IMG/VR virus record: IMGVR_UViG_3300037189_018674 | Location: 1 to 21,673 of that record | Direction: 5' to 3' (one strand) | Length of the DNA stretch: 21,673 nucleotides | Source: a virus | Shown here: in pieces, positions 3,784 through 21,673 of the stretch | Layout of the letters: each line of letters starts with the position of its first letter | How positions within the stretch are numbered: position 1 is the first letter of the stretch | Program-made: the position numbers and the translations under genes | Notes under the pieces: generated by a model | What the model was told of the DNA's origin: nothing | The model's database searches: none | What the model saw: only the letters and a program-made list of their open reading frames with translations

Positions 3784-6114
3784 ATGACAGCTTTTGTTAG
3801 AAAAGTAGGTAATAATTTTTATGTTAGATATTCAAATGGTACCGCGTGGGTACGATCCTCCGAACAACAGGTTCAAGATTTATGTGCAAGTTGCTGTCCT
3901 ATTCAGTTTTTATCATCGTGGGAAGATCCTAATACCGTTTGTAACGACTCAAGATTCACTCATCCAATCAGCTTAAAGGCTCCATATTATATTTTTAAAG
4001 GACAACCAAATAATGGAGTTATTACAAGCACCCCTAAGTCAGCTCCATCGTATGCATACTCTCTTTTTGGTGGAACTCCCCCAACAACAAATTTTAGTTC
4101 AAGAATAAGCATTAAAATTCCAAATGATCCAGTGTTTAGCGGAACATATGTTTTTGATTATAAGTCATTAACTCAAGAATGGCGTTTAAATACTTTATCA
4201 GGCATGACCGATACCTCAGTATCTGCCTATCAGGACTACTGGAATATGTCTTATGGTGTTGGTAAAAAAATAATTAGTTTAGTAGAAACAACAAACGAAC
4301 CTTCATATAAAGGATATGTCGAATATGCAACAAGCGGTAATATTGGATCAAATTTGAGTGGAGTATATGCTTTTCCGTGTCAATTTGTGTTCACAGCTAT
4401 TCAAGCTCCAGAAGATATAGTGGGAATAGATCTTCCTGGCGGCACCAATCCTGTACTACCACTAGGAACTGGCCATAGAGCGGTTATTGGTTTCAACCCA
4501 CCATTAAGGTGGAGACATCCTTATAGTGATTGGACAGTTGTTGATCAAATTGGTCATAATATATTACCAGAAAATTATCCTCTCGACGTTGCAGGAACTG
4601 CCCCAGCAAAACCTTGGTTTAATACCAATTATTTCACAGGAATAGCTAGTCAGCCGTCCTCAATTAATATTAGTGGAATAAGTAACAATCCATATAATTT
4701 ATCTAGCTCGTCATCAAAAACTCCAGTTTATACTGGCCTTTCAACTATAGGATTCTCTTATAGAACTTCAGGAGTTGGAGTTCCTTTTGACAGTTCAGAA
4801 TATGGGGTCTCTATGGTGAATCGTTGTAGTGGAATAAGACCACACTTTCATAAATATCAATTTACTTATAATAGTGTCTCTTATTCTATCAACGAAACAG
4901 CATTATTTAGTCCTAAACAGTATTTAGATGCATCAATAGAATTTAATTTTTCTTGTAGAACATCTGGAACAACCTGTTCAGAATTTAATTCGTTAATTCC
5001 TGTATCAACAGGATATTCAACCATTAGTAATAGTTGTTTTGGCTCGTATGTTAATGCTGATTTTATGTGTGGGGATAATTTTGCTCATCCTAGCGGAAAT
5101 TATTTTACAACAGAAGGAGTGCAAGATCTTAAGATTATTTACTCTGGATTACCTTATCAAGTAGCTTCGATTCCTCACGTTTATCCTATGGTAAAAACAA
5201 CAAATTCTGCTGGTAATGTTTATAAAGCTAATAGTGGACAAATAATTTTTGTAGATTACGATGGAGCTAAAACTCCTGATGGCTTTAGATCATGGATAAA
5301 TTCAAACTTTAACTTTGTAACATTAGATAATAGTGACAATGTTACTATTAAATGGCCCGGTGTTGATGTGTATTGGAGTCTTAGAGACTCTGTTTATGTT
5401 TCAGGAGCAGGAGCAGGCTATGACACAAGCGGAAAATATTATGCAGCAAATGTTGTTGATTATAATGACAATATTTTTTATTCAAAAGATGGTGGAAATA
5501 GTTATCCAAGAATATCTACACAGGGTGATGGCGAGTGGTATATGAATAAAAATGGTGATGACTTGTATAAATTAAGTAATAATACAAATTATCCAATTTA
5601 TCCGTTTCTTCCAACAGGTACCTGGGAAAGCTATAGTGACGATTTATTTGGTCCAATGATTAGCTATGATAATAAAACAGCATTCGCCAGAGTTACTCCA
5701 GAAGGTGGAGAAGGAAGCAACGTTGGAGTATATGTTTTTAAAGCAGGATTAACAGAATTTATATCTCAATATGCTTATGATTCTGATAATAATAGATATA
5801 TTAGTCTTAAGAACTCAGATATACAAATGAGATTTTCTGTTGATAAATGGCAATTGGGCAAAGTTGAAACTGGTACATTTGTTGCATATTATGAATTGAC
5901 TAATGTAACATGTGGCAATCCTTTATTATTAGATCCTCAAATACTCGATTATAGTGACTATAATCCGATAAATACTTATGGAACAGTTCAAATTCCTGTA
6001 ACGTGTTTATCACAACCTATTGGACAATGGGTTGCGACAGGTCCAGGAACAGGATCCGCAATATCGGTAAGAGATCCATTGGCTGTTGGCGGCGCTGGCT
6101 CTTTCATTTGTTAA
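3784..6114 (+). CDS. Large probable virion/adhesin protein
   Basis: The protein has 776 residues and is the largest complete product here. It is rich in Tyr, Ser, Asn, Gly and Thr with alternating beta-strand patterns throughout, and contains scattered cysteines including C34, C37, C38 and C53. There is no signal peptide, membrane span or enzyme motif that I recognise. The N-terminus (MTAFVRKVGNNFYVRYSNG) is short-stranded beta and could be an attachment domain. The C-terminus ends GGAGSFIC. Composition, length and position next to fibre-like genes suggest a tail fibre, spike or other surface protein that contacts the host. AGGAT at 3773-3777 serves as a weak ribosome-binding site. Functional assignment is low-confidence; the reading frame itself is certain. 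Confidence 0.6.
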   Translation: MTAFVRKVGNNFYVRYSNGTAWVRSSEQQVQDLCASCCPIQFLSSWEDPNTVCNDSRFTHPISLKAPYYIFKGQPNNGVITSTPKSAPSYAYSLFGGTPPTTNFSSRISIKIPNDPVFSGTYVFDYKSLTQEWRLNTLSGMTDTSVSAYQDYWNMSYGVGKKIISLVETTNEPSYKGYVEYATSGNIGSNLSGVYAFPCQFVFTAIQAPEDIVGIDLPGGTNPVLPLGTGHRAVIGFNPPLRWRHPYSDWTVVDQIGHNILPENYPLDVAGTAPAKPWFNTNYFTGIASQPSSINISGISNNPYNLSSSSSKTPVYTGLSTIGFSYRTSGVGVPFDSSEYGVSMVNRCSGIRPHFHKYQFTYNSVSYSINETALFSPKQYLDASIEFNFSCRTSGTTCSEFNSLIPVSTGYSTISNSCFGSYVNADFMCGDNFAHPSGNYFTTEGVQDLKIIYSGLPYQVASIPHVYPMVKTTNSAGNVYKANSGQIIFVDYDGAKTPDGFRSWINSNFNFVTLDNSDNVTIKWPGVDVYWSLRDSVYVSGAGAGYDTSGKYYAANVVDYNDNIFYSKDGGNSYPRISTQGDGEWYMNKNGDDLYKLSNNTNYPIYPFLPTGTWESYSDDLFGPMISYDNKTAFARVTPEGGEGSNVGVYVFKAGLTEFISQYAYDSDNNRYISLKNSDIQMRFSVDKWQLGKVETGTFVAYYELTNVTCGNPLLLDPQILDYSDYNPINTYGTVQIPVTCLSQPIGQWVATGPGTGSAISVRDPLAVGGAGSFIC

Positions 6115-6137
6115 ATTAGATAATATAAAGGTTAATT

Positions 6138-6314
6138 ATGAAAATATTAGATAGAATAGCATTAAATAGATTAATATCTATAATAACAAGTTTTATATTA
6201 TCTATTATAAAAATTTTTGCTAATAAAAACATTGATAATGTTGTTCCACACGTTCCTGATAATCAACCATTTCCCTGGCTCAGAAAACAAATTAATAAGG
6301 TAATTAAAAAATGA
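6138..6314 (+). CDS. 58-residue membrane peptide
   Basis: A short gene begins at ATG 6138 with AAAGG seven bases upstream and ends at TGA 6312-6314, overlapping the next ATG (ATGA). The product begins MKILDRIALNRLISIITSF, has one hydrophobic helix at about residues 12-28, and ends with a basic amphipathic tail (WLRKQINKVIKK). This resembles small phage membrane peptides, but no family is recognised. A good ribosome-binding site, coupling to the next gene, and a neat fit in the gap after the 776-residue protein support it as real. Confidence 0.55.
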   Translation: MKILDRIALNRLISIITSFILSIIKIFANKNIDNVVPHVPDNQPFPWLRKQINKVIKK

Positions 6315-6661
6315 TTAATAAATTATTAATAATATCTATGTTCTTATCTTCTATGGTAACCTACTCTTCTGATTATAGTCCAGTTTATACCAAATCTGCT
6401 GTGATTTTAGCGGGATCAGTTATTGCATCACAACATATGGTTGATAATAAAAAATATAAACGAAAAGATTGCCCCATCTGTAAAGGTAAAGGTTGGTATA
6501 TTAGTGGAGATGAAATTAAAAAAGTAGATTGTGGTTATTGTGAAGAAGATACAAAAAACCAACCAGTTGAGAAGCCATCGCCAAAAGTTTTAATTCATAA
6601 TCCCATAACAATAACTCCCAATTGTATAAGCGGAACTTGCTCATCGACACAGAGAAAGTAA
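6311..6661 (+). CDS. Exported protein with a four-cysteine zinc motif
   Basis: The protein has 116 residues. Residues 1-19 (MINKLLIISMFLSSMVTYS) look like a cleavable signal peptide, followed by a second mildly hydrophobic patch at about 29-40. A zinc-binding pattern follows: CPICKGKGWY (Cys54, Cys57) and CGYC (Cys74, Cys77). The first half resembles the C-x-x-C-x-G-x-G units of the DnaJ central domain. Two more cysteines (105, 110) lie near the C-terminus. The gene starts inside the stop of the upstream membrane peptide, so they are translated together. A zinc motif on an exported phage protein is uncommon. The role is unknown; interaction with envelope proteins is one possibility. Confidence 0.6.
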   Translation: MINKLLIISMFLSSMVTYSSDYSPVYTKSAVILAGSVIASQHMVDNKKYKRKDCPICKGKGWYISGDEIKKVDCGYCEEDTKNQPVEKPSPKVLIHNPITITPNCISGTCSSTQRK

Positions 6662-6664
6662 ATT

Positions 6665-7057
6665 ATGTCTAATGATGAAAAACTAAAAAATATATCCAAA
6701 GAAATTTTAAAAAAAGCTAATATTCCAGAAGATCAAAAATTTGGTAGTATTATAGCTATTTTAATGATGATTAGTATAGTCTTAACCATTATAAGAGTTA
6801 TGCAGGAGTGTAATAAAAGCAAAACCAATAATATGTCATGTGCGGAAAAGGGTTTTCTATATGGTCAAGAAATACGTTCTTATAGTAAAAAAAGGGGTTG
6901 GTTTACTAGACTAAGAATCAAGCGAATTATTCGTCAAGAACTAACTAAAGAAGACTATCATAAATATGGTATTAAACTTACAGAAGTTTTGTTAGATAAA
7001 GGAGAAATTCTCACGGACGATGAGGCATTAACCCTAGTGGAGACAGCAAATGTTTAA
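6665..7057 (+). CDS. Unknown single-pass membrane protein
   Basis: The protein has 130 residues. A charged N-terminal helix (about residues 1-25) precedes a hydrophobic segment at about 27-45, then a basic cytoplasmic-looking region (KKRGWFTRLRIKRIIRQEL) and an acidic C-terminus. Cysteines at about 49 and 58 lie just after the membrane segment. No family is recognised. The start is three bases after the previous stop and the end overlaps the next gene by eight bases, so it belongs to a coupled run of small membrane proteins (6138-7307). The topology suggests a membrane anchor with a cytoplasmic domain, but no function can be assigned. Confidence 0.5.
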   Translation: MSNDEKLKNISKEILKKANIPEDQKFGSIIAILMMISIVLTIIRVMQECNKSKTNNMSCAEKGFLYGQEIRSYSKKRGWFTRLRIKRIIRQELTKEDYHKYGIKLTEVLLDKGEILTDDEALTLVETANV

Positions 7058-7307
7058 TTTATTAGTATGGTGTGTTTATGGATTATTTGTTGGTAGTGTG
7101 GCCAAAGCAATTGTTCCAGGTGAAGAAAATTTTGGTTTTATAAAAACAGTTGCATTAGGTGTTGCTGGTTCATATATGGGAGGGGCGGTTTTGTATATGT
7201 TAGGTAAATACGAATCCTTATCTCCAGCAGGGTTATTTATGGGAGTAGCAGGAGCTATTCTCTCTCTTGTTTTATATAATAAGCTCCAGCAACAGACCAA
7301 ATCTTGA
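7050..7307 (+). CDS. GlsB/YeaQ/YmgE (transglycosylase-associated) family membrane protein
   Basis: The protein has 85 residues with three hydrophobic segments at about residues 3-20, 32-51 and 58-76. The glycine-rich pattern is typical of the family: G-L-x-V-G-x-x-A-K-x-I-V-P-G after the first segment, then a G-x-x-G-S-Y-x-G-G patch and a G-x-x-G-A-x-x-x-L final helix. Members are small stress-associated inner-membrane proteins of unknown biochemical activity; despite the family name no transglycosylase activity is shown by the sequence. It overlaps the upstream gene by eight bases and is the last gene before the promoter at 7344. It may alter the host envelope during infection, which is inference. 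Confidence 0.75.
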   Translation: MFNLLVWCVYGLFVGSVAKAIVPGEENFGFIKTVALGVAGSYMGGAVLYMLGKYESLSPAGLFMGVAGAILSLVLYNKLQQQTKS

Positions 7308-7343
7308 TCAAATAGCTTGAATGAAGCTTATAAGAAAAAATAT

Positions 7344-7371
7344 TTGACTAGCAGCAGAATTCTGCTATCAT
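7344..7371 (+). promoter_or_regulatory. Sigma70-like promoter with extended -10
   Basis: TTGACT at 7344-7349 (-35) and TATCAT at 7366-7371 (-10) are separated by 16 bases. TGC at 7363-7365 makes it an extended -10 (TGnTATCAT). Transcription should start near 7378, at or next to the ATG of the dCMP deaminase gene at 7379, so the message would have practically no leader. No ribosome-binding site precedes that ATG, which agrees. This is the best promoter in the window and lies at the switch from membrane/structural to nucleotide-metabolism genes. A host-like promoter implies early or middle transcription by host RNA polymerase. Confidence 0.7.
7353..7366. promoter_or_regulatory. Perfect 14-bp palindrome in the promoter spacer (putative operator)
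   Basis: AGCAGAATTCTGCT reads the same on both strands. It fills most of the spacer between the -35 and -10 boxes and touches the first base of the -10. A dimeric repressor bound here would block RNA polymerase directly. I saw no second copy elsewhere in the window. The palindrome is directly visible; its role as an operator is inferred from its position. Confidence 0.55.
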
Positions 7372-7378
7372 ATGCTAT

Positions 7379-7861
7379 ATGAAAACAACACCCCTCGCTA
7401 GACCATCATGGAACGATTATTTCTTAGGTCTTGCTAAAGTCATTTCACAACGCAGTCACGATTCTCAAACACAACATGGTTGTGTAATTACAGATCAAAA
7501 TAATAGGATACTGGGTGTTGGATATAATGGTTTTGCACGAGGCTTGGACGATGATCTATTGCCAACCACTCGTCCTGATAAATATCCGTGGATGATACAT
7601 GCAGAAAGAAACGCATTAAGTAATTGTGTTGTTAGACCGGACAATGGAGTAGCATATGTTACTGGCCAATGCTGTAATGATTGTATTATGGCCTTATGGC
7701 AAGAAGGCGTCTCCACAGTTATCATGATGGATGATCATGGTACACATTTATTTGATGACAAAGCACAAAAACACTTTGATTCTTTTGTCAAAATGAGTCA
7801 AATCAATATTAGATACATTAAGCCAAACTTCAATTGGCTGAGACAAATACCCGGTGTATAA
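7379..7861 (+). CDS. Deoxycytidylate (dCMP) deaminase
   Basis: This 160-residue zinc enzyme converts dCMP to dUMP, feeding dTTP synthesis. The zinc and catalytic motifs are visible: H74-A-E76 in MIHAERNAL, and Cys99 and Cys102 in CCNDC. The usual Pro before the first zinc cysteine is replaced by another Cys (C98). Upstream, the substrate-side pattern T-Q-x-G-x-V-I ... G-Y-N-G (residues 31-51) is typical of the dCMP deaminase/ComEB family. ATG 7379 is the only plausible start, as homologous sequence begins by residue 9. There is no ribosome-binding site, and a promoter lies just upstream, so translation is probably leaderless. The stop overlaps a 47-residue ORF that leads into the ribonucleotide reductase, so the genes form one nucleotide-synthesis unit. 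Confidence 0.9.
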   Translation: MKTTPLARPSWNDYFLGLAKVISQRSHDSQTQHGCVITDQNNRILGVGYNGFARGLDDDLLPTTRPDKYPWMIHAERNALSNCVVRPDNGVAYVTGQCCNDCIMALWQEGVSTVIMMDDHGTHLFDDKAQKHFDSFVKMSQINIRYIKPNFNWLRQIPGV

Positions 7862-8004
7862 TGAACTTACCAATAATAATATTTTATGGCAGTTTAATTT
7901 GTTATTTTTATAATAGAGTTTATACTGAAGATTTATTAATGACAAATTTTTCTTTTCAAACCGCAATCATTATAGGTATCATTGCCATTTTAAATAGGAG
8001 ATAG
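7861..8004 (+). CDS. 47-residue membrane peptide between dCMP deaminase and RNR
   Basis: An ORF begins at ATG 7861, sharing its first base with the deaminase stop (TAATG), and ends at TAG 8002-8004, one base before the reductase ATG. The product has two hydrophobic stretches (about residues 3-17 and 34-44) joined by a short polar loop, and ends LNRR. The ribosome-binding site of the reductase (AGGAG, 7996-8000) lies inside its last codons. It fills the gap exactly with coupled ends on both sides, which argues that it is translated. Its peptide could have a membrane role, or its translation may simply control initiation at the reductase. No family is recognised. Confidence 0.5.
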   Translation: MNLPIIIFYGSLICYFYNRVYTEDLLMTNFSFQTAIIIGIIAILNRR

Positions 8005-8005
8005 T

Positions 8006-10195
8006 ATGTCGGCACTTCAAGAACTTCAGAATTATACATTTGTTAGTAAGTATGCTCGTTGGATAGAAGATAAGAATCGCAGAGAAACTTGGAAGGAAGC
8101 TGTTGATCGCGTCAAAAATATGATGCATACCCAGTATCCTGATGTCAAAGAAGATATCGATTGGGCATATGATATGATGTATAAGAAGAAGATTCTTGGT
8201 AGCCAAAGAGCATTACAGTTCGGTGGCGAACCAATTCTCAAAAGACATGCGAAGATATACAACTGCACAAGTTCATATTGTGATCGACTCCGATTTTTCC
8301 AAGAGTGTTTCTGGCTACTATTATGTGGTAGCGGAACAGGATTTAGTGTTCAAAAACACCACGTTGCAAAATTACCAACATTAGAACATGATATTCCCGA
8401 CAACAATGAAGGAACAAAATATGTTATTGAAGATAGCATAGAAGGATGGGCAGATGCTCTTGGAGTTCTTCTTAGTTCTTACTTTAGTAAGCCAATTGAA
8501 GAATTCAAAATATACAAAAATACTTATGTTGTTTTTGACTATTCAAATATTAGACCTAAAGGATCATCATTAGCCAGTGGCGTAGGAAAGGCCCCTGGAT
8601 TTGAGCCACTACAAAATGGACTAGAAAAAATCAGAACTCTACTAGATCGTTGTATCTCTAATGGCCAAAAGAAACTAAGACCAATCGATGCTTATGATAT
8701 TGTTATGCACAGTAGCGATGCCGTGTTAAGTGGTGGAGTCAGACGCTCTGCTAGTCTTGCTTTATTTAGTCCTGATGATGAAGAAATGGCAAAAGCAAAA
8801 ACCGGTAATTGGTATATAGACAACCCACAAAGAGCACGAAGTAATAATTCGGCACTTCTACTTAAAAATGAAACAACGCTTGAAGAATTTCAAGAACTAA
8901 TGGAAAGTGTTAAAGAATTCGGAGAACCAGGATTTATTTGGAGTGACTCAACAGAAATGACATTTAATCCTTGCGTAGAGGTTGGAATGTGGCCAGTAGA
9001 TGAAGAAACTGGAAAGAGTGGATGGCAAGGATGTAATCTATCTACTATCAACTGTTCATCAATTGAAGATGAAGATGATTTTTATGAAAGATGTAAGGCT
9101 GCTGCTATTATAGGAACTCTACAGGCTGGATTCACTAAACTAGATTATCTTGGAGAGATCACTTGCAGAATTTTTGAAAGAGAAGCTCTGCTTGGAGTTT
9201 CATTAACTGGAACAATGGAAAAACACGATCTTATTCTTTCAGAAAAGGTTCTTCGTGCCGGAGCTAAAATTGCAGTCGAAACAAACAAAGAGCTATCAAA
9301 AAAGATCAAAATTAACCAAGCAGCAAGAGTAACTTGTCTAAAGCCAGAAGGCACAAGCTCTAGTATGCTTGGAACAAGCTCGGGTATCCACCCACATCAT
9401 GCTAAACGCTATATAAGACACGTACAGGCCAATATTTTAGAAGCACCGTACCAACACTTTAAAAAACTAAACCCGCAAGCCTGTGAAAAATCCAGTTGGT
9501 CAGCAAACAATACGGATGAGGTAATTAAGTTTCCAATAGAGGTTCCAGACGGAGCTAAATTAAAGAACCAATTACCAGCTGTAGAAATGTTATCTATTGT
9601 TAAAGATACTCAAAAAAACTGGGTTCAAAGTGGAAAAAACAGATCATTATGTACTCAAGAATATTTAAGTCATAATGTTAGTAATACCGTAACCGTTAAG
9701 CCAGACGAATGGGATGATGTTACTAAATATATTTATGATAACCGTAAATATTTTGCTGGTATTAGTTTAATTCCACAGAGCGGAGATAAAGACTATACAC
9801 AAGCCCCATTCACAACAGTTTATACTAGTCGTGAAATAGTTAAAGAATATGGAGATGCTGCATTGTGGTGCTCTGGACTAATTCAATTGGGCTTGAATGC
9901 TTTTAATAACAATCTATGGGCGGCTTGTGATTATGCTAGTATGAATCAGACAAAAGAAAATGATAGTCAAGATAAATTATTATTTATTACCAAGATGAAA
10001 AATTTTGCTGGTAAATATTTTGATAGTGACCTTAAGAGACTAACATATTGTATGAAGGATGTTTATAATTGGAAAATCTATTGCGATCTATATAACGGAT
10101 TTAAAAAAGTAGACTATACACAACTTCTGGAAAATGAAGATAATACTGTCGGGATTGAGGAAATAAGTTGTGCTGGTGGCGCCTGTTTATTATAA
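8006..10195 (+). CDS. nrdJ: Class II (adenosylcobalamin-dependent) ribonucleotide reductase, monomeric type
   Basis: The enzyme has 729 residues and reduces ribonucleotides (triphosphates in the Lactobacillus-type subfamily) to deoxyribonucleotides using vitamin B12 coenzyme, so it needs no small subunit and no oxygen. Active-site motifs are present: Cys87 in YNCTSSYCD as the first redox cysteine, NPCVE (Asn321, Cys323 thiyl radical, Glu325), and Cys343 in GCNLS as partner. The C-terminus ends CAGGACLL, a C-x4-C pair (Cys722, Cys727) that passes electrons to the active site, as in the Lactobacillus leichmannii enzyme. The start has AGGAG five bases upstream. No intein or intron interrupts it. 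It follows the dCMP deaminase and supplies precursors for the replication genes downstream. Confidence 0.92.
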   Translation: MSALQELQNYTFVSKYARWIEDKNRRETWKEAVDRVKNMMHTQYPDVKEDIDWAYDMMYKKKILGSQRALQFGGEPILKRHAKIYNCTSSYCDRLRFFQECFWLLLCGSGTGFSVQKHHVAKLPTLEHDIPDNNEGTKYVIEDSIEGWADALGVLLSSYFSKPIEEFKIYKNTYVVFDYSNIRPKGSSLASGVGKAPGFEPLQNGLEKIRTLLDRCISNGQKKLRPIDAYDIVMHSSDAVLSGGVRRSASLALFSPDDEEMAKAKTGNWYIDNPQRARSNNSALLLKNETTLEEFQELMESVKEFGEPGFIWSDSTEMTFNPCVEVGMWPVDEETGKSGWQGCNLSTINCSSIEDEDDFYERCKAAAIIGTLQAGFTKLDYLGEITCRIFEREALLGVSLTGTMEKHDLILSEKVLRAGAKIAVETNKELSKKIKINQAARVTCLKPEGTSSSMLGTSSGIHPHHAKRYIRHVQANILEAPYQHFKKLNPQACEKSSWSANNTDEVIKFPIEVPDGAKLKNQLPAVEMLSIVKDTQKNWVQSGKNRSLCTQEYLSHNVSNTVTVKPDEWDDVTKYIYDNRKYFAGISLIPQSGDKDYTQAPFTTVYTSREIVKEYGDAALWCSGLIQLGLNAFNNNLWAACDYASMNQTKENDSQDKLLFITKMKNFAGKYFDSDLKRLTYCMKDVYNWKIYCDLYNGFKKVDYTQLLENEDNTVGIEEISCAGGACLL

Positions 10196-10277: not shown

Positions 10278-11009
10278 TTGAGAAAAACTAATAGAAACTC
10301 AAAGAAAAAAAGTAAGGTTATTGATGCGACAAATAGTTTGGAACCCAAAGGAGCCGCTTATAGAAATCGATTAAAACCAAGAACAGAAAATCAAAAAGAA
10401 TACATAAGGACTGTTGCAGAAAATACTATAACATTTTGTCAAGGCTTAGCCGGTAGTGGCAAAACACACATCGCTATAGGAATGGCTCTTGAGTATCTTT
10501 TAGATGAAAAAGTAAAAAAGATTATTATCACAAGACCTATATTAGAGGCTGGAGAAAAAATGGGATATCTCCCAGGATCAGCAGAAGAAAAATTACATCC
10601 TTATCTATTACCTATACTAGATGAAATTGTACACTTCATAAGCTCAGCACATTATGCTTCACTAAGACTTAATAATAAAGTTGAAGTGGTTCCACTGGGA
10701 CTTATGAGAGGTCGTAATTTTCATAACGCTTTTATTGTTGCTGATGAGTGCCAGAATGCGTCATATGAACAATTAAAAATGCTAATAACAAGAACAGGAC
10801 AAGCTAGTAAAATGGTTTTAACTGGCGACGTTGCTCAGTCTGATTTAAGCAGACATTTACAAGGCGGTTTTAGCGATATGATATCAGCCCTTAATGGAGT
10901 TGAAGGTATAGGTTATTCTAAATTAGAAGCCTCAGATATTGTAAGAAATCCAATCATCTCTAAAATCCTATATAGACTTGATGACTATGAGCAGCAAAGC
11001 CGAAAATAG
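10278..11009 (+). CDS. phoH: PhoH-like P-loop ATPase
   Basis: The protein has 243 residues. Walker A is GLAGSGKT (residues 56-63) and Walker B is AFIVADECQN (151-160), followed by T-G-D-x-x-Q-S-D, all typical of the PhoH/YlaK family. PhoH proteins are widespread in phages, and their exact role is unsettled (RNA-related ATPase or helicase activity has been proposed). The N-terminal 35 residues are highly basic and may bind nucleic acid. The start is TTG 10278, with AAAAGG seven bases upstream; no ATG exists before the Walker A region. It is the first gene after the hairpin at 10214 and overlaps the next gene by 29 bases. It ends with tandem stops TAG TAA. Confidence 0.88.
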   Translation: MRKTNRNSKKKSKVIDATNSLEPKGAAYRNRLKPRTENQKEYIRTVAENTITFCQGLAGSGKTHIAIGMALEYLLDEKVKKIIITRPILEAGEKMGYLPGSAEEKLHPYLLPILDEIVHFISSAHYASLRLNNKVEVVPLGLMRGRNFHNAFIVADECQNASYEQLKMLITRTGQASKMVLTGDVAQSDLSRHLQGGFSDMISALNGVEGIGYSKLEASDIVRNPIISKILYRLDDYEQQSRK

Positions 11010-11580
11010 TAAATGTTTATTATTAAATGCCGACTATTCCCCTCTGAGAATAATATCTTGGCAGAGGGCTATAGTTTGGTCTATTAGATATGAAGATAGT
11101 AAAAATTATGGTATCGAAATATTATCATATTACAAAGATAAACACATACAAGGATCTGCCGGCAAACAATATCCTGTTCCGGCAGTAGCAAAAACACTTA
11201 GATTCTTCAACCTATACAATAGAAAGATTAATTTTTCTAGACATAATTTATTTATTAGAGATAATCATACATGTCAATATTGTGGTATTCAATTATGTTT
11301 CTCACAATTAACATATGATCATATAATTCCAAAAAGTAGATTCAATGAGAATAAAAGATTATCTACAAATTGGAATAATGTTGTTACAGCATGCAGACCA
11401 TGTAATCATAAAAAGGGCAACAGAACACCAAAAGAAGCTGGGATGTCATTAATAAATATCCCAATCGAGCCGAATTATTCTTACGCATACTTGCCATGGT
11501 ACCAGGAACTATCTAATATAACTCAGGGATCGTCGTACGAAATATGGAAACCATTTATATCTCATATTAATTATGTCTAA
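10981..11580 (+). CDS. HNH endonuclease with zinc-binding cysteines
   Basis: The protein has about 199 residues. Residues 98-143 form an HNH nuclease core with structural zinc: C98-x-x-C101 (CQYCG), the catalytic D113-H114 (TYDHIIPKSRF), W131-N-N-V-V, and C138-R-P-C141-N-H143-K-K-G-N. The first 90 residues carry L-L-L-N-A-D-Y-x-P-L, commonly seen in standalone bacterial and phage HNH proteins of this type. It cuts DNA, but whether it is a free-standing homing enzyme or serves replication, recombination or packaging is unclear. It overlaps the end of phoH. ATG 10981 and ATG 10987 are both possible starts, and neither has a clear ribosome-binding site. The last eight bases overlap the next gene. 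Confidence 0.85.
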   Translation: MTMSSKAENSKCLLLNADYSPLRIISWQRAIVWSIRYEDSKNYGIEILSYYKDKHIQGSAGKQYPVPAVAKTLRFFNLYNRKINFSRHNLFIRDNHTCQYCGIQLCFSQLTYDHIIPKSRFNENKRLSTNWNNVVTACRPCNHKKGNRTPKEAGMSLINIPIEPNYSYAYLPWYQELSNITQGSSYEIWKPFISHINYV

Positions 11581-18691: not shown

Positions 18692-19479
18692 AAATAATCG
18701 GAATATCCGGAAGAAAACAGTCTGGAAAAAGCACATTCGGTAACTTTGCAATTTCTATTTTTTTAGCAAAGCTTGATTATGCTAAATCAATATATATAGA
18801 TACCGAAACTGGCGAGCTTTTAGTATCAGACTTATTAGACGACGATAGGTTTAAGGGAATTTTTGATACAAGAATGTATAAAGAAGTATTTAATGACCAA
18901 AGAATCAACATAGCATTAGAAAAACTTAACAAGAAAGTTAAAATTTATAATTTTGCAGATATTTTAAAGAATGATATTTGCATGAATATGCTTGGTTTAT
19001 CATATGGGCAGTGCTATGGTGATGATGATAAAAAAAATACACTAACTGATATTATGTGGAAAAATATGCCAGGATATGAGGTGTCTAATTTAAATAGCTC
19101 TGATCATGATCCTAGTGGATACATGACAGCCAGACAAGTGATGCAGTTTGTTGGAACCGATATGTTCAGGAAAATGAAAACAGACGTTTGGGTTCGCAGC
19201 ACAATCAACAAAATATTAAATGAACAACCAGAAGTTGCCATTATTACAGACTGTCGATTTCCTAATGAGGTAGAATCAATTAGGAATATGGGAGGTTCAG
19301 TAATTAGACTAACTAGAAATCCTTTTAACTCAGATCACACAAGTGAGACAGTATTGGATAAAGACAATTATGATTGGTCTAATTTTGATCACATCATAGA
19401 AAATGATAATATCAATATTACTGAATATTTTGATCAGTCAAAAGCCATACTTTCTCAAATTATAGAAACTAATAAATGA
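18688..19479 (+). CDS. Deoxynucleoside monophosphate kinase
   Basis: The protein has 263 residues and belongs to the phage dNMP kinase family (T4 gene 1 / T5 type), which phosphorylates dNMPs to dNDPs for viral DNA synthesis. The P-loop is GISGRKQSGKST (residues 5-16). The typical middle motif T-A-R-Q-V-M-Q-F-V-G-T-D-M-F-R (about 147-161) and the segment I-I-T-D-C-R-F-P-N-E-V (about 189-199) are present, together with W-V near 166-167. It overlaps the primase by four bases (ATGA) and the next nuclease by four bases. With the reductase and dCMP deaminase it completes a route from ribonucleotides to dNDPs. Confidence 0.85.
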   Translation: MKIIGISGRKQSGKSTFGNFAISIFLAKLDYAKSIYIDTETGELLVSDLLDDDRFKGIFDTRMYKEVFNDQRINIALEKLNKKVKIYNFADILKNDICMNMLGLSYGQCYGDDDKKNTLTDIMWKNMPGYEVSNLNSSDHDPSGYMTARQVMQFVGTDMFRKMKTDVWVRSTINKILNEQPEVAIITDCRFPNEVESIRNMGGSVIRLTRNPFNSDHTSETVLDKDNYDWSNFDHIIENDNINITEYFDQSKAILSQIIETNK

Positions 19480-20519
19480 TAATTACATATTTTAGAAGCA
19501 GCTCATTTAATACACACAGTATGTGCGAACAACAATATTTTCTAGAATATGTGTTGGGGTGGAGAGGTCCATCAGGTCAAAAGGCAGACAAAGGAACGAT
19601 AGTTCATAAAGTTTTGGAGATTCTTGCTTGTATTAAAAAGGGGACGCAAGATAATCTATCTAAGATAAATGATGATATACTTGGAGATATTGATGTAATA
19701 AATTATGATTTAGACACAATTATTGATCAGGTATATTCTTTTTACTCCAAGAACTCTCCGCATCACAAATGGTCAAATAAAGATCACAAAGACTGTAAAG
19801 AGTGGGTTTATAAAGCTATTAATTTAAATAATGGAATGTTTGATCCAAGAAATAGAGATATACTTCAACCAGAGCAGCACTTTGACTTTGAGATTCGCAA
19901 GCCTTGGTCACAGTATTCCTATGACCTAGGAGACGGCAAAACTCTCTCAGGACACTTGGCTTTAAAAGGCACCATCGATCTTATTACAAAAGTAAATGAT
20001 GACACCATAGAGGTTATAGATTGGAAAACTGGCAAAAGACTAGACTGGGCTACCGGACAAGAAAAAACCCAGGAAAAACTTGAAAAAGATCCTCAATTAA
20101 AAATATATCATTATGCCATTAAACAACTATATCCAAATATCAAAAATGTTATTTTCTCTATTTATTTTATAAATGATGGTGGGCCATTTTCTATATGTTT
20201 TCATGATTATGATCTTTCTTCTACAGAAGATATATTAAGAGAAAAATTTAATCATATTAAACACACAAAAAAGCCTAAACTACATAAGAGTTGGATGTGT
20301 AGTAAATTATGTTTTTTTGGCAAAACAACATTTGAAGGAACGAATGTAGATCCTATCGAAGAATACAGAGATGGTCAATTATGTAAAAAAGATCAGACCA
20401 TGACCAAATGTGAACAAGTAAAACACGATCTTGACTTGTATGGAATCAATGGTATAATGCCAGTGTACAAGCACCCAAACCATACTTTTGGCCATTACAA
20501 AGCTCCGGGAAGTATGTGA
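19476..20519 (+). CDS. PD-(D/E)XK exonuclease, Cas4/RecB-like, with possible Fe-S cysteines
   Basis: The protein has 347 residues. The nuclease signature is His44 (G-T-I-V-H-K-V-L-E), Asp168 (G-T-I-D-L-I), D182-W-K184 (V-I-D-W-K-T-G-K) and Q207-x3-Y211 (D-P-Q-L-K-I-Y), in RecB-nuclease order. Cysteines at 17, 275, 279 and 303 or 312 match the one-before, three-after layout of Cas4/AddB-type iron-sulphur nucleases. It probably chews DNA ends for recombination or processes replication intermediates. There is no CRISPR array here, so a CRISPR role is not suggested. It overlaps the dNMP kinase by four bases and is followed by the polymerase gene. Confidence 0.85.
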   Translation: MIITYFRSSSFNTHSMCEQQYFLEYVLGWRGPSGQKADKGTIVHKVLEILACIKKGTQDNLSKINDDILGDIDVINYDLDTIIDQVYSFYSKNSPHHKWSNKDHKDCKEWVYKAINLNNGMFDPRNRDILQPEQHFDFEIRKPWSQYSYDLGDGKTLSGHLALKGTIDLITKVNDDTIEVIDWKTGKRLDWATGQEKTQEKLEKDPQLKIYHYAIKQLYPNIKNVIFSIYFINDGGPFSICFHDYDLSSTEDILREKFNHIKHTKKPKLHKSWMCSKLCFFGKTTFEGTNVDPIEEYRDGQLCKKDQTMTKCEQVKHDLDLYGINGIMPVYKHPNHTFGHYKAPGSM

Positions 20520-20542: not shown

Positions 20543-20548
20543 AAGGAG
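20543..20548 (+). promoter_or_regulatory. Ribosome-binding site that decides the polymerase start
   Basis: AAGGAG sits nine bases upstream of ATG 20558. This is the strongest Shine-Dalgarno match in the region and points to 20558, whose frame gives the PHP-type N-terminus, rather than ATG 20577 in the downstream frame, whose AAAGG (20570-20574) is only two bases from the ATG. Confidence 0.7.
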
Positions 20549-20557
20549 AAAATATAG

Positions 20558-21673
20558 ATGGACGTGAATAAAGGATATGTTCCTTTGCACGTCCATTCTT
20601 AGAGAATCACATTATTCTCTACTGGATGGACTAAGTAAACCTAATCAGATAGCAAATAGATGTTCTTCTATAAGTGCTAAAAGTTGTGCAATAACTGACC
20701 ATGGATCAATATCTGGTTGTGTACAGTTTTATCAGGCAATGAAATCAAAAAATATCAAGCCTATATTAGGTTGTGAAATTTATGTATGCAAACAGGATTC
20801 TAATATAAAAGATAAATCAAATGGCGAACTAAGTCACTTTTTATTATTAGCTAAAAATTTATTAGGGTGGAAAACTCTAATTAATATAATATCAGAGTCT
20901 AACAAATCAGATAACTTTTATCGTAAACCAAGAATTAGCTTTAATAGATTGTCAGAGTTTTTAGATGGTAACGTTATTGGTTTTTGTGGACATCTAGGAT
21001 CATTTTTATCAGATATTATAGAGGCTAATAAAGACGATTATCTTACAGAATCTTTGTCCTATATATCTTATATGAAAGAGATATTTGGTAAAGATAACTT
21101 TTTTCTAGAAGCCCAATTAATAGATCAACAAATTAATCCATCACAATTTCAAATGACACAAGTTATGAGAGATTTGTCTCAAAAAACAGGAACAAAAATC
21201 ATAGCCACCCCTGATGCTCATTATTGTGAAAGACAGGACGCAATTGATCAGAGAATATTATTATGCAATAATCTAAAAACAACTTTAATAGATGTTAATA
21301 AAAAAATGCTTGTTAATGAGCAGATTCCTATGGAGTGTTTTTTCAGATCTGATAATTTTCATATTCCAGATATGTTAGAGATGCAAAGTATACACACACA
21401 AGAAGAACTAGAGAATACATTTTTTGTTGATTCTTTATGTGAGGAGTATTCTATTCTCAGTAAGCCATTACTTCCAGCTTTTGAATGTCCAAATAATTCT
21501 AATCCAGAAGAATATCTGAGACAATTATGTAGAGATGGTTGGAGAGAAAAGATAATGAATGATATTCCAGAGTCTGAGCACACAAGATATGCAGATAGAG
21601 TAAAATTAGAATTAGATATTTTACAAAAAGCTGGATTATCTAGTTACTTTCTTATAGTGCAAGATATTGTAAA
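20558..21673 (+). CDS. dnaE: DNA polymerase III alpha subunit (DnaE-like), frame-disrupted and cut off by window end
   Basis: This is the start of a C-family replicative polymerase, showing the PHP domain. From ATG 20558 the frame reads YVPLHVHS and then hits TAG at 20600-20602. The rest, HYSLLDGLSKPNQIA onward, lies in the +1 frame and is open to the last base. Visible PHP residues are His-x-His (LHVH, first frame), then D-H-G-S-I, G-C-E-I-Y-V, and T-P-D-A-H-Y-C in the second frame. A continuous ORF from ATG 20577 to the end exists but would replace the His-x-His motif with MFLCTSILRES and has a poor ribosome-binding site. Error, inactivating mutation, programmed +1 frameshift and short bypass are all possible. 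The catalytic polymerase domain lies beyond the window. Confidence 0.85.
20594..20618 (+). other. Frame break with hairpin and stop codon in the polymerase gene
   Basis: The sequence around the break has CAT TCT followed by TAG. ATTCT (20595-20599) and AGAAT (20603-20607) form an inverted repeat with TAG as the loop, and ATTCT recurs at 20614-20618. Ten bases (TAGAGAATCA, 20600-20609, or an equivalent set) separate the two correct halves, and removing them gives HVHSHYSLLDG, the consensus PHP opening. Alternatively, skipping one base at TCT-TAG gives HVHS-RES-HYSLLDG. Confidence 0.7.

Follow-up and report, generated by a model that had tools for sequence, protein, structure and literature searches.

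The window, the whole stretch of 21,673 nt that was analysed, is a phage contig from a virus record, and near its end a nuclease gene is followed by a gene for the alpha subunit of DNA polymerase III (dnaE). The features of this locus are the following:

19476-20519, plus strand: gene for a PD-(D/E)XK (Cas4/RecB-like) nuclease, an ORF whose identical copy in contig L002 matches Pfam PDDEXK_1 (2e-17)
20543-20548, plus strand: ribosome-binding site AAGGAG
20543-20571, plus strand: AAGGAG plus a 3'-terminal remnant of an HNH endonuclease gene, with its final codons GAT GGA CGT GAA TAA at 20557-20571
20558-20602, plus strand: dnaE segment 1, MDVNKGYVPLHVHS, from ATG 20558 to its TAG stop (20600-20602)
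20558-20596, plus strand: 5' stem-loop (P1), with an outer stem of 9 bp (20558-20566 with 20588-20596) and an inner stem
20591-20631, plus strand: possible alternative stem (P3), GTCCATTC (20591-20598) with GGATGGAC (20624-20631)
20597-20599, plus strand: putative take-off codon TCT (Ser)
20600-20609, plus strand: coding gap of 10 nt, TAGAGAATCA, ending in the putative landing codon TCA (20607-20609)
20600-20621, plus strand: putative take-off hairpin (P2), an 8-bp stem formed by TAGAGAAT and ATTCTCTA around a 6-nt loop
20610-21673, plus strand: dnaE segment 2, the PHP and NTPase part of DNA polymerase III alpha, with resume codon CAT, still open at the end of the window

In the window the codons CAC GTC CAT TCT (20588-20599) are directly followed by TAG, and the second segment, in the +1 frame, begins HYSLLDGLSKP... 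This segment stays open for 611 codons (611 aa, counted from the landing codon) in the identical contig L002, where its product matches Pfam PHP (1.6e-30) and DNA_pol3_alpha (2.3e-75). The first-pass annotation had listed the ribosome-binding site, ATG 20558, HVHS, TAG, TCA and the HYSLLDG of the +1 frame, all of which lie at the coordinates it gave, and deletion of the ten gap bases yields exactly the sequence HVHSHYSLLDG that it had foreseen. No tRNA genes were found within the window, and Rfam returned no match in the region of the dnaE break. DnaE of L002 is encoded in two genes (5001-6836, 7005-7712, 7714-9336), a DnaQ-like exonuclease gene separating the PHP/NTPase part from the finger/HHH/OB part that follows; this layout is found in both broken and intact lineages (L002, L007, L236), and no intein was noticed at the split.

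A protein search for relatives produced 17 loci, two of which (L003, and L002 as a second contig with an identical junction) have the same break as the window, while a third (L015, 66% protein identity) reads HVHS-TAA with a gap of 11 nt instead of 10 and the remaining loci are contiguous, for example HAHSHYSLLDG. A DNA pattern scan gave 27 contigs, and a protein profile search blind to the junction gave an unbiased set of 80 loci, comprising 16 broken and 64 contiguous ones with no third class; a stop lies directly 3' of the Ser codon in all 16 broken loci. Pooling these searches with further scans rendered 46 distinct cassettes from phage contigs. As several of the scans had part of the junction built into their pattern, they bias the codon frequencies around it, and the unbiased set is the safer reference. 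The cassettes share the pattern AAGGAG, ATG leading into Y-x-P-L-H-V-H-S, a stop, 7-12 extra bases and [H/M/E]-[Y/F]-S-L-L-D-G, and the broken family, a large one of environmental phages, spans dozens of contigs with 60-87% protein identity. With its recurrence in 46 distinct cassettes the break in dnaE is real and far beyond chance. Among isolated phages no DNA match to the window was found, and the polymerase relatives are all below 60% identity.

A stop directly follows the take-off codon in 46/46 cassettes (TAA 25, TAG 18, TGA 3), the expression used to find them having required a stop, which the profile search did not. The gap from the stop to the resume codon measures 7 nt (1 cassette), 8 (3), 9 (9), 10 (15), 11 (17) or 12 (1), so that all three frames are covered, with at least 15 length changes on the approximate dnaE tree. 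The joined product remains constant, HVHS followed by [HME][YFD]SLLDG, and the residues after the gap (HYS, HFS, MFS, MYS) are those of intact relatives, which never have extra residues at this point. Because the gap falls in all three frames and the joined product does not vary, no fixed frameshift, readthrough or change of code explains the break. Before the gap, Y-x-P-L-H-V-H-S is kept in every cassette through many synonymous changes (five codons for Leu, two for Pro and two for the first His) and without a single replacement; Y, P, L, H, V and H are thus invariant in 46/46, H, V and H having been demanded by the search expression and Y, P and L not. Seven PHP positions checked downstream are invariant in 48/48 broken genes, a result to be expected only when motif I, whose codons precede the gap, becomes part of the same product.

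The codon preceding the resume site is TCN, like the take-off codon, in 29 of the 46 cassettes, the window included (TCT to TCA, synonymous), and differs in 17 (ACT in nine, GCY in seven, TGA in one). The first base is mismatched in the 16 cassettes with ACT or GCY, and TGA is found in L175. Strict re-pairing with the landing codon is therefore not universal, and landing may depend partly on structure. The cassette of L175 is the most diverged member (TCA-TGA, gap of 7 nt, resume codon GAA); its junction reads HVHS-EYSLLDG, as in bacteria, and only the last codons of the endonuclease remain. A further variant (L221, L225, L227) has a TTG start, retains P1, lacks P2 and continues as HFSLLDG, the L221 type showing an exactly matched junction, TCG-TAAA-TCG.

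Two hairpins flank the putative take-off codon. P1 begins at the start codon and ends beside the take-off codon TCT, with the codon that precedes it; its fold of -20.1 kcal/mol (z -6.5) was equalled by 0/200 shuffles. All 46 cassettes preserve eight of the nine outer pairs, the remaining pair being present in 40/46, and pair 7/33 alternates between G-C, A-T and G-U with 10 changes on the tree. This stronger hairpin, directly 5' of the Ser codon, was absent from the first-pass annotation, which had taken the TAG for the loop of a small hairpin. That assignment was mistaken, as TAG forms the first three base pairs of the 8-bp stem of P2 and the loop is CACATT. P2 (z -4.8 in the window) starts at the stop codon, which pairs with the Leu codon CTA; it is present in nearly all cassettes, absent in the L221 type and interrupted in L027 and L172, and the first T of the stop is unpaired in most cassettes. 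The two arms co-vary: the Leu codon CTT occurs with TAAG or TAGG and once with TGAG, CTA with TAG, TTA with TAA, and CTC with TGAG in two cassettes and with TAGC in one. Pairing of P2 arms with their own partners scored 6.69 compared to a shuffled mean of 5.30 and maximum of 6.09 (0/5000 re-deals as high), although such statistics are inflated by the shared ancestry of the cassette, only partly removed, and by coding constraint. L015 has P3, which would enclose P2 together with the take-off codon, as its minimum-energy fold, and the TGGATGG sequence of P3 is found in 14/14 distinct broken alleles of the unbiased set versus 21/45 intact ones.

Directly upstream of the broken dnaE, an ORF of about 240 aa is present in L015/L040, L022, L023, L033, L134, L167, L188 and L203, with AAGGAG in its 3' end and a stop that overlaps the dnaE start region. 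PHROG profiles assign it to the HNH endonucleases as a relative of endonuclease VII (7e-22), and its relatives in isolated phages are annotated as HNH endonucleases; Pfam gave no HNH match above cut-off for this ORF, and a PDB profile search found nothing. The DNA of the window at 20543-20571 is the same as the 3' end of the intact ORF in these contigs, and this remnant, ending in the last codons GATGGACGTGAATAA, is all that is left of the endonuclease there; truncated remnants are also kept in L140, L171, L175 and L212. The HNH gene or a short 3' remnant adjoins 12/48 broken alleles versus 0/54 intact ones, and all 14 close endonuclease copies or remnants retrieved from the viral collection adjoin the cassette. 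On the dnaE tree, broken alleles are scattered among intact ones, with 17 presence/absence changes, at least 10 of them forced by supported branches, on a FastTree topology that is approximate and does not separate gain from loss. In intact phages the stop of the upstream PD-(D/E)XK nuclease gene overlaps or closely precedes the dnaE start, the ATG lying at or overlapping that stop without a ribosome-binding site spacer of its own.

Other mobile-type genes were seen in these phages. A more distant HNH paralog lies directly upstream of the Cas4-like gene in L250, L251, L254 and L255, its stop overlapping the ATG of that gene, apparently with no bypass. In L045 (3442-6435) dnaE is interrupted a second time, about 420 codons in, by a LAGLIDADG ORF, in which contig Rfam finds no intron, and a LAGLIDADG insert of intein-like appearance lies in frame within the upstream nuclease gene. 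The window itself has an unrelated HNH endonuclease gene at 10978-11580 (Pfam HNH_5, 6.9e-12), between a PhoH-like ORF and small ORFs, with no link to the dnaE site.

From these sequence features we infer that dnaE is, with high probability, expressed by programmed ribosomal bypassing in the form of a short stop-hop, through an element carried by a mobile HNH endonuclease cassette. Translation would start at ATG 20558 and proceed for 14 codons to TCT (Ser), placing the stop codon in the A site, where P2 would hold the stop and the strong P1 could fold behind the ribosome. The peptidyl-tRNA-Ser would then quit TCT while zipping of P1 pulls the mRNA by some 7-12 nt (10 in the window); since P1 abuts the take-off codon, its geometry suggests that it could close fully only if the mRNA were drawn out of the ribosome by about the length of the hop. 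The tRNA would land on TCA 20607 and decoding would restart at CAT 20610, yielding the intact PHP motif HVHSHYSLLDG. The cassette would have spread together with an HNH homing endonuclease inserted 5' of dnaE. As the gap splits a conserved coding sequence, it probably protects the carrier from its own nuclease, by analogy with T4, while bypassing would keep the polymerase functional despite the gap; in the window the endonuclease would later have been lost except for its 3' end. More tentatively, the cassettes may form a family in which the landing point depends mainly on the mRNA hairpins, as the 5' stem zips up and the hairpin around the stop codon melts, rather than on exact re-pairing of codons; natural in-frame stop-hops would belong to this family, which would operate with a nascent chain not long enough for a peptide signal of the T4 type.

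Excision from the RNA and downstream initiation are the less likely explanations. In the first, an unknown nuclease and ligase would cut 7-12 nt out of the RNA, guided by the hairpins, and the spliced message would be read normally. This would give the same product whatever the frame and would make the ACT and GCY cases no problem, a match of landing codons being unneeded. However, it does not account for a stop that always comes right behind the Ser codon, nor for the unpaired first T of the stop in most cassettes, no Rfam intron was found in the region, and we know of no bacterial or phage machinery of this kind, so that we consider it improbable.

An equally small chance is given to two separate products, namely a 14-residue leader peptide regulating dnaE and a polymerase that starts after the gap without the first PHP motif. 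P1 covers the start codon, which makes regulation conceivable, and candidate starts exist, TTG or CTG within LLDG and ATG or GTG in the downstream frame of some cassettes (some alternative start codon is found in that frame in about half of them). On the other hand, in 24/46 cassettes the stretch from the preceding stop to the resume codon contains no start, and the supposed leader keeps the exact polymerase sequence YxPLHVHS through synonymous changes. Invariance of seven other PHP positions would be odd if motif I were lost, and intact relatives have the same residues as those found behind the gap. A downstream start at ATG 20577 (MFLCTSILRESHYSLLDG) was rejected: it stems from TATGTT and is confined to gap-10 members, and in 16/17 gap-11 cassettes that frame lacks any start.

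Of the three readings offered by the first-pass annotation, the hop from TCT to TCA over TAGAGAA, with the stop right after the take-off codon as in T4 gene 60, survives, and the other two are excluded by the relatives. A +1 frameshift at TCT-TAG, giving HVHS-RES-HYSLLDG, would suit the open +1 frame of the window, but with gaps of 7, 8, 9, 10, 11 or 12 nt always opened by a stop, the relatives would need +1, +2 or 0 with a stop to reach their constant joined product, and the inserted residues would vary in number and kind, whereas intact relatives never have extras; its probability is minimal. An assembly error, which had been called the simplest explanation, or a decaying pseudogene can produce a single break, but is just as implausible for one that is identical on independent contigs, is conserved over dozens of contigs of 60-87% protein identity with sequences that diverge yet preserve the structure, and is followed by a frame open for 611 codons under purifying selection. 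A -1 frameshift is discarded, like the +1, because the gaps occur in all frames; readthrough and an altered code are discarded by the use of all three stops and by gaps that are mostly not multiples of three, and a His-to-His hop (CAT to CAT) by the loss of the conserved Ser that it would entail and its failure where the resume codon is ATG.

The proposed stop-hop in dnaE resembles T4 gene 60, in which ribosomes halt at the GGA that precedes UAG, a stem-loop contains this stop, and another stem-loop on the 5' side serves as motor and can lend part of its sequence to the take-off stem in an alternative pairing (PMC5009743; PMC11194080). The likeness, already pointed out in the first-pass annotation, is made closer by the hairpins and the homing-endonuclease context. 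One protein is made from two disjoint segments in gene 60 and would be so in dnaE, there in all three frames, and both systems have a stop directly 3' of the take-off codon and within a stem, a 5' stem-loop behind the ribosome whose 3' arm is able to pair in a stem enclosing the take-off codon, and a linked mobile endonuclease gene (mobA in T4). They differ in the gap (7-12 nt versus 50 in T4), the nascent chain (13-14 residues without KKYK versus 46 with a KKYK signal), the gene (polymerase III alpha versus a topoisomerase subunit) and the take-off codon (Ser versus Gly); unlike gene 60, the dnaE cassettes have many natural variants and, in about one third of them, a landing codon mismatched at its first base. 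We saw no sign of common origin and regard the dnaE cassette as analogous to, and independent of, mobA/gene 60.

In synthetic stop-hops of E. coli, matched codons flank a stop and 9 nt are decoded as one residue; gap-9 members such as L026 (TCT TAA GTG TCT) have that layout with three more nucleotides between the codons, and the dnaE cassettes have hairpins and natural conservation, whereas the E. coli cases are constructs. A 2016 review knew of no natural in-frame stop-hop (PMC5009743). The byp elements of Magnusiomyces mitochondria, 81 inserts scattered across many mitochondrial yeast genes (PMC5009743), share with the dnaE cassettes short bypassed inserts and landing codons that are not always matched, but the dnaE cassette occupies a single site in a phage gene and is endonuclease-linked. 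A short bypass in a phage gene has also been proposed for the terminase of Streptomyces phage Hau3, with another gene and context (a UUA codon) and, in the portion of that source available to us, no hairpin or endonuclease cassette described.

In a literature search that reached few subscription papers, no report of bypassing in a phage polymerase was found. Efficient natural bypassing has so far been known from a single phage gene and a single group of yeast mitochondria, and short natural counterparts have long been expected and not found, according to the leading review (PMC5009743). With dozens of natural variants in the gene of a replicative polymerase, having gaps of 7-12 nt and covarying hairpins, the rules of take-off and landing would become directly testable. 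The present data suggest that homing endonucleases and bypassed inserts have come together on more than one occasion; selfish genes may thus repeatedly have used ribosome hopping to leave their mark in essential genes whose function is spared. Automated gene prediction would report such polymerases as truncated. The sole match in genome collections, L236, is an 8-kb contig with this cassette that was binned in a Chitinophagia MAG; it is probably a phage contig and gives at most a weak hint of the host.
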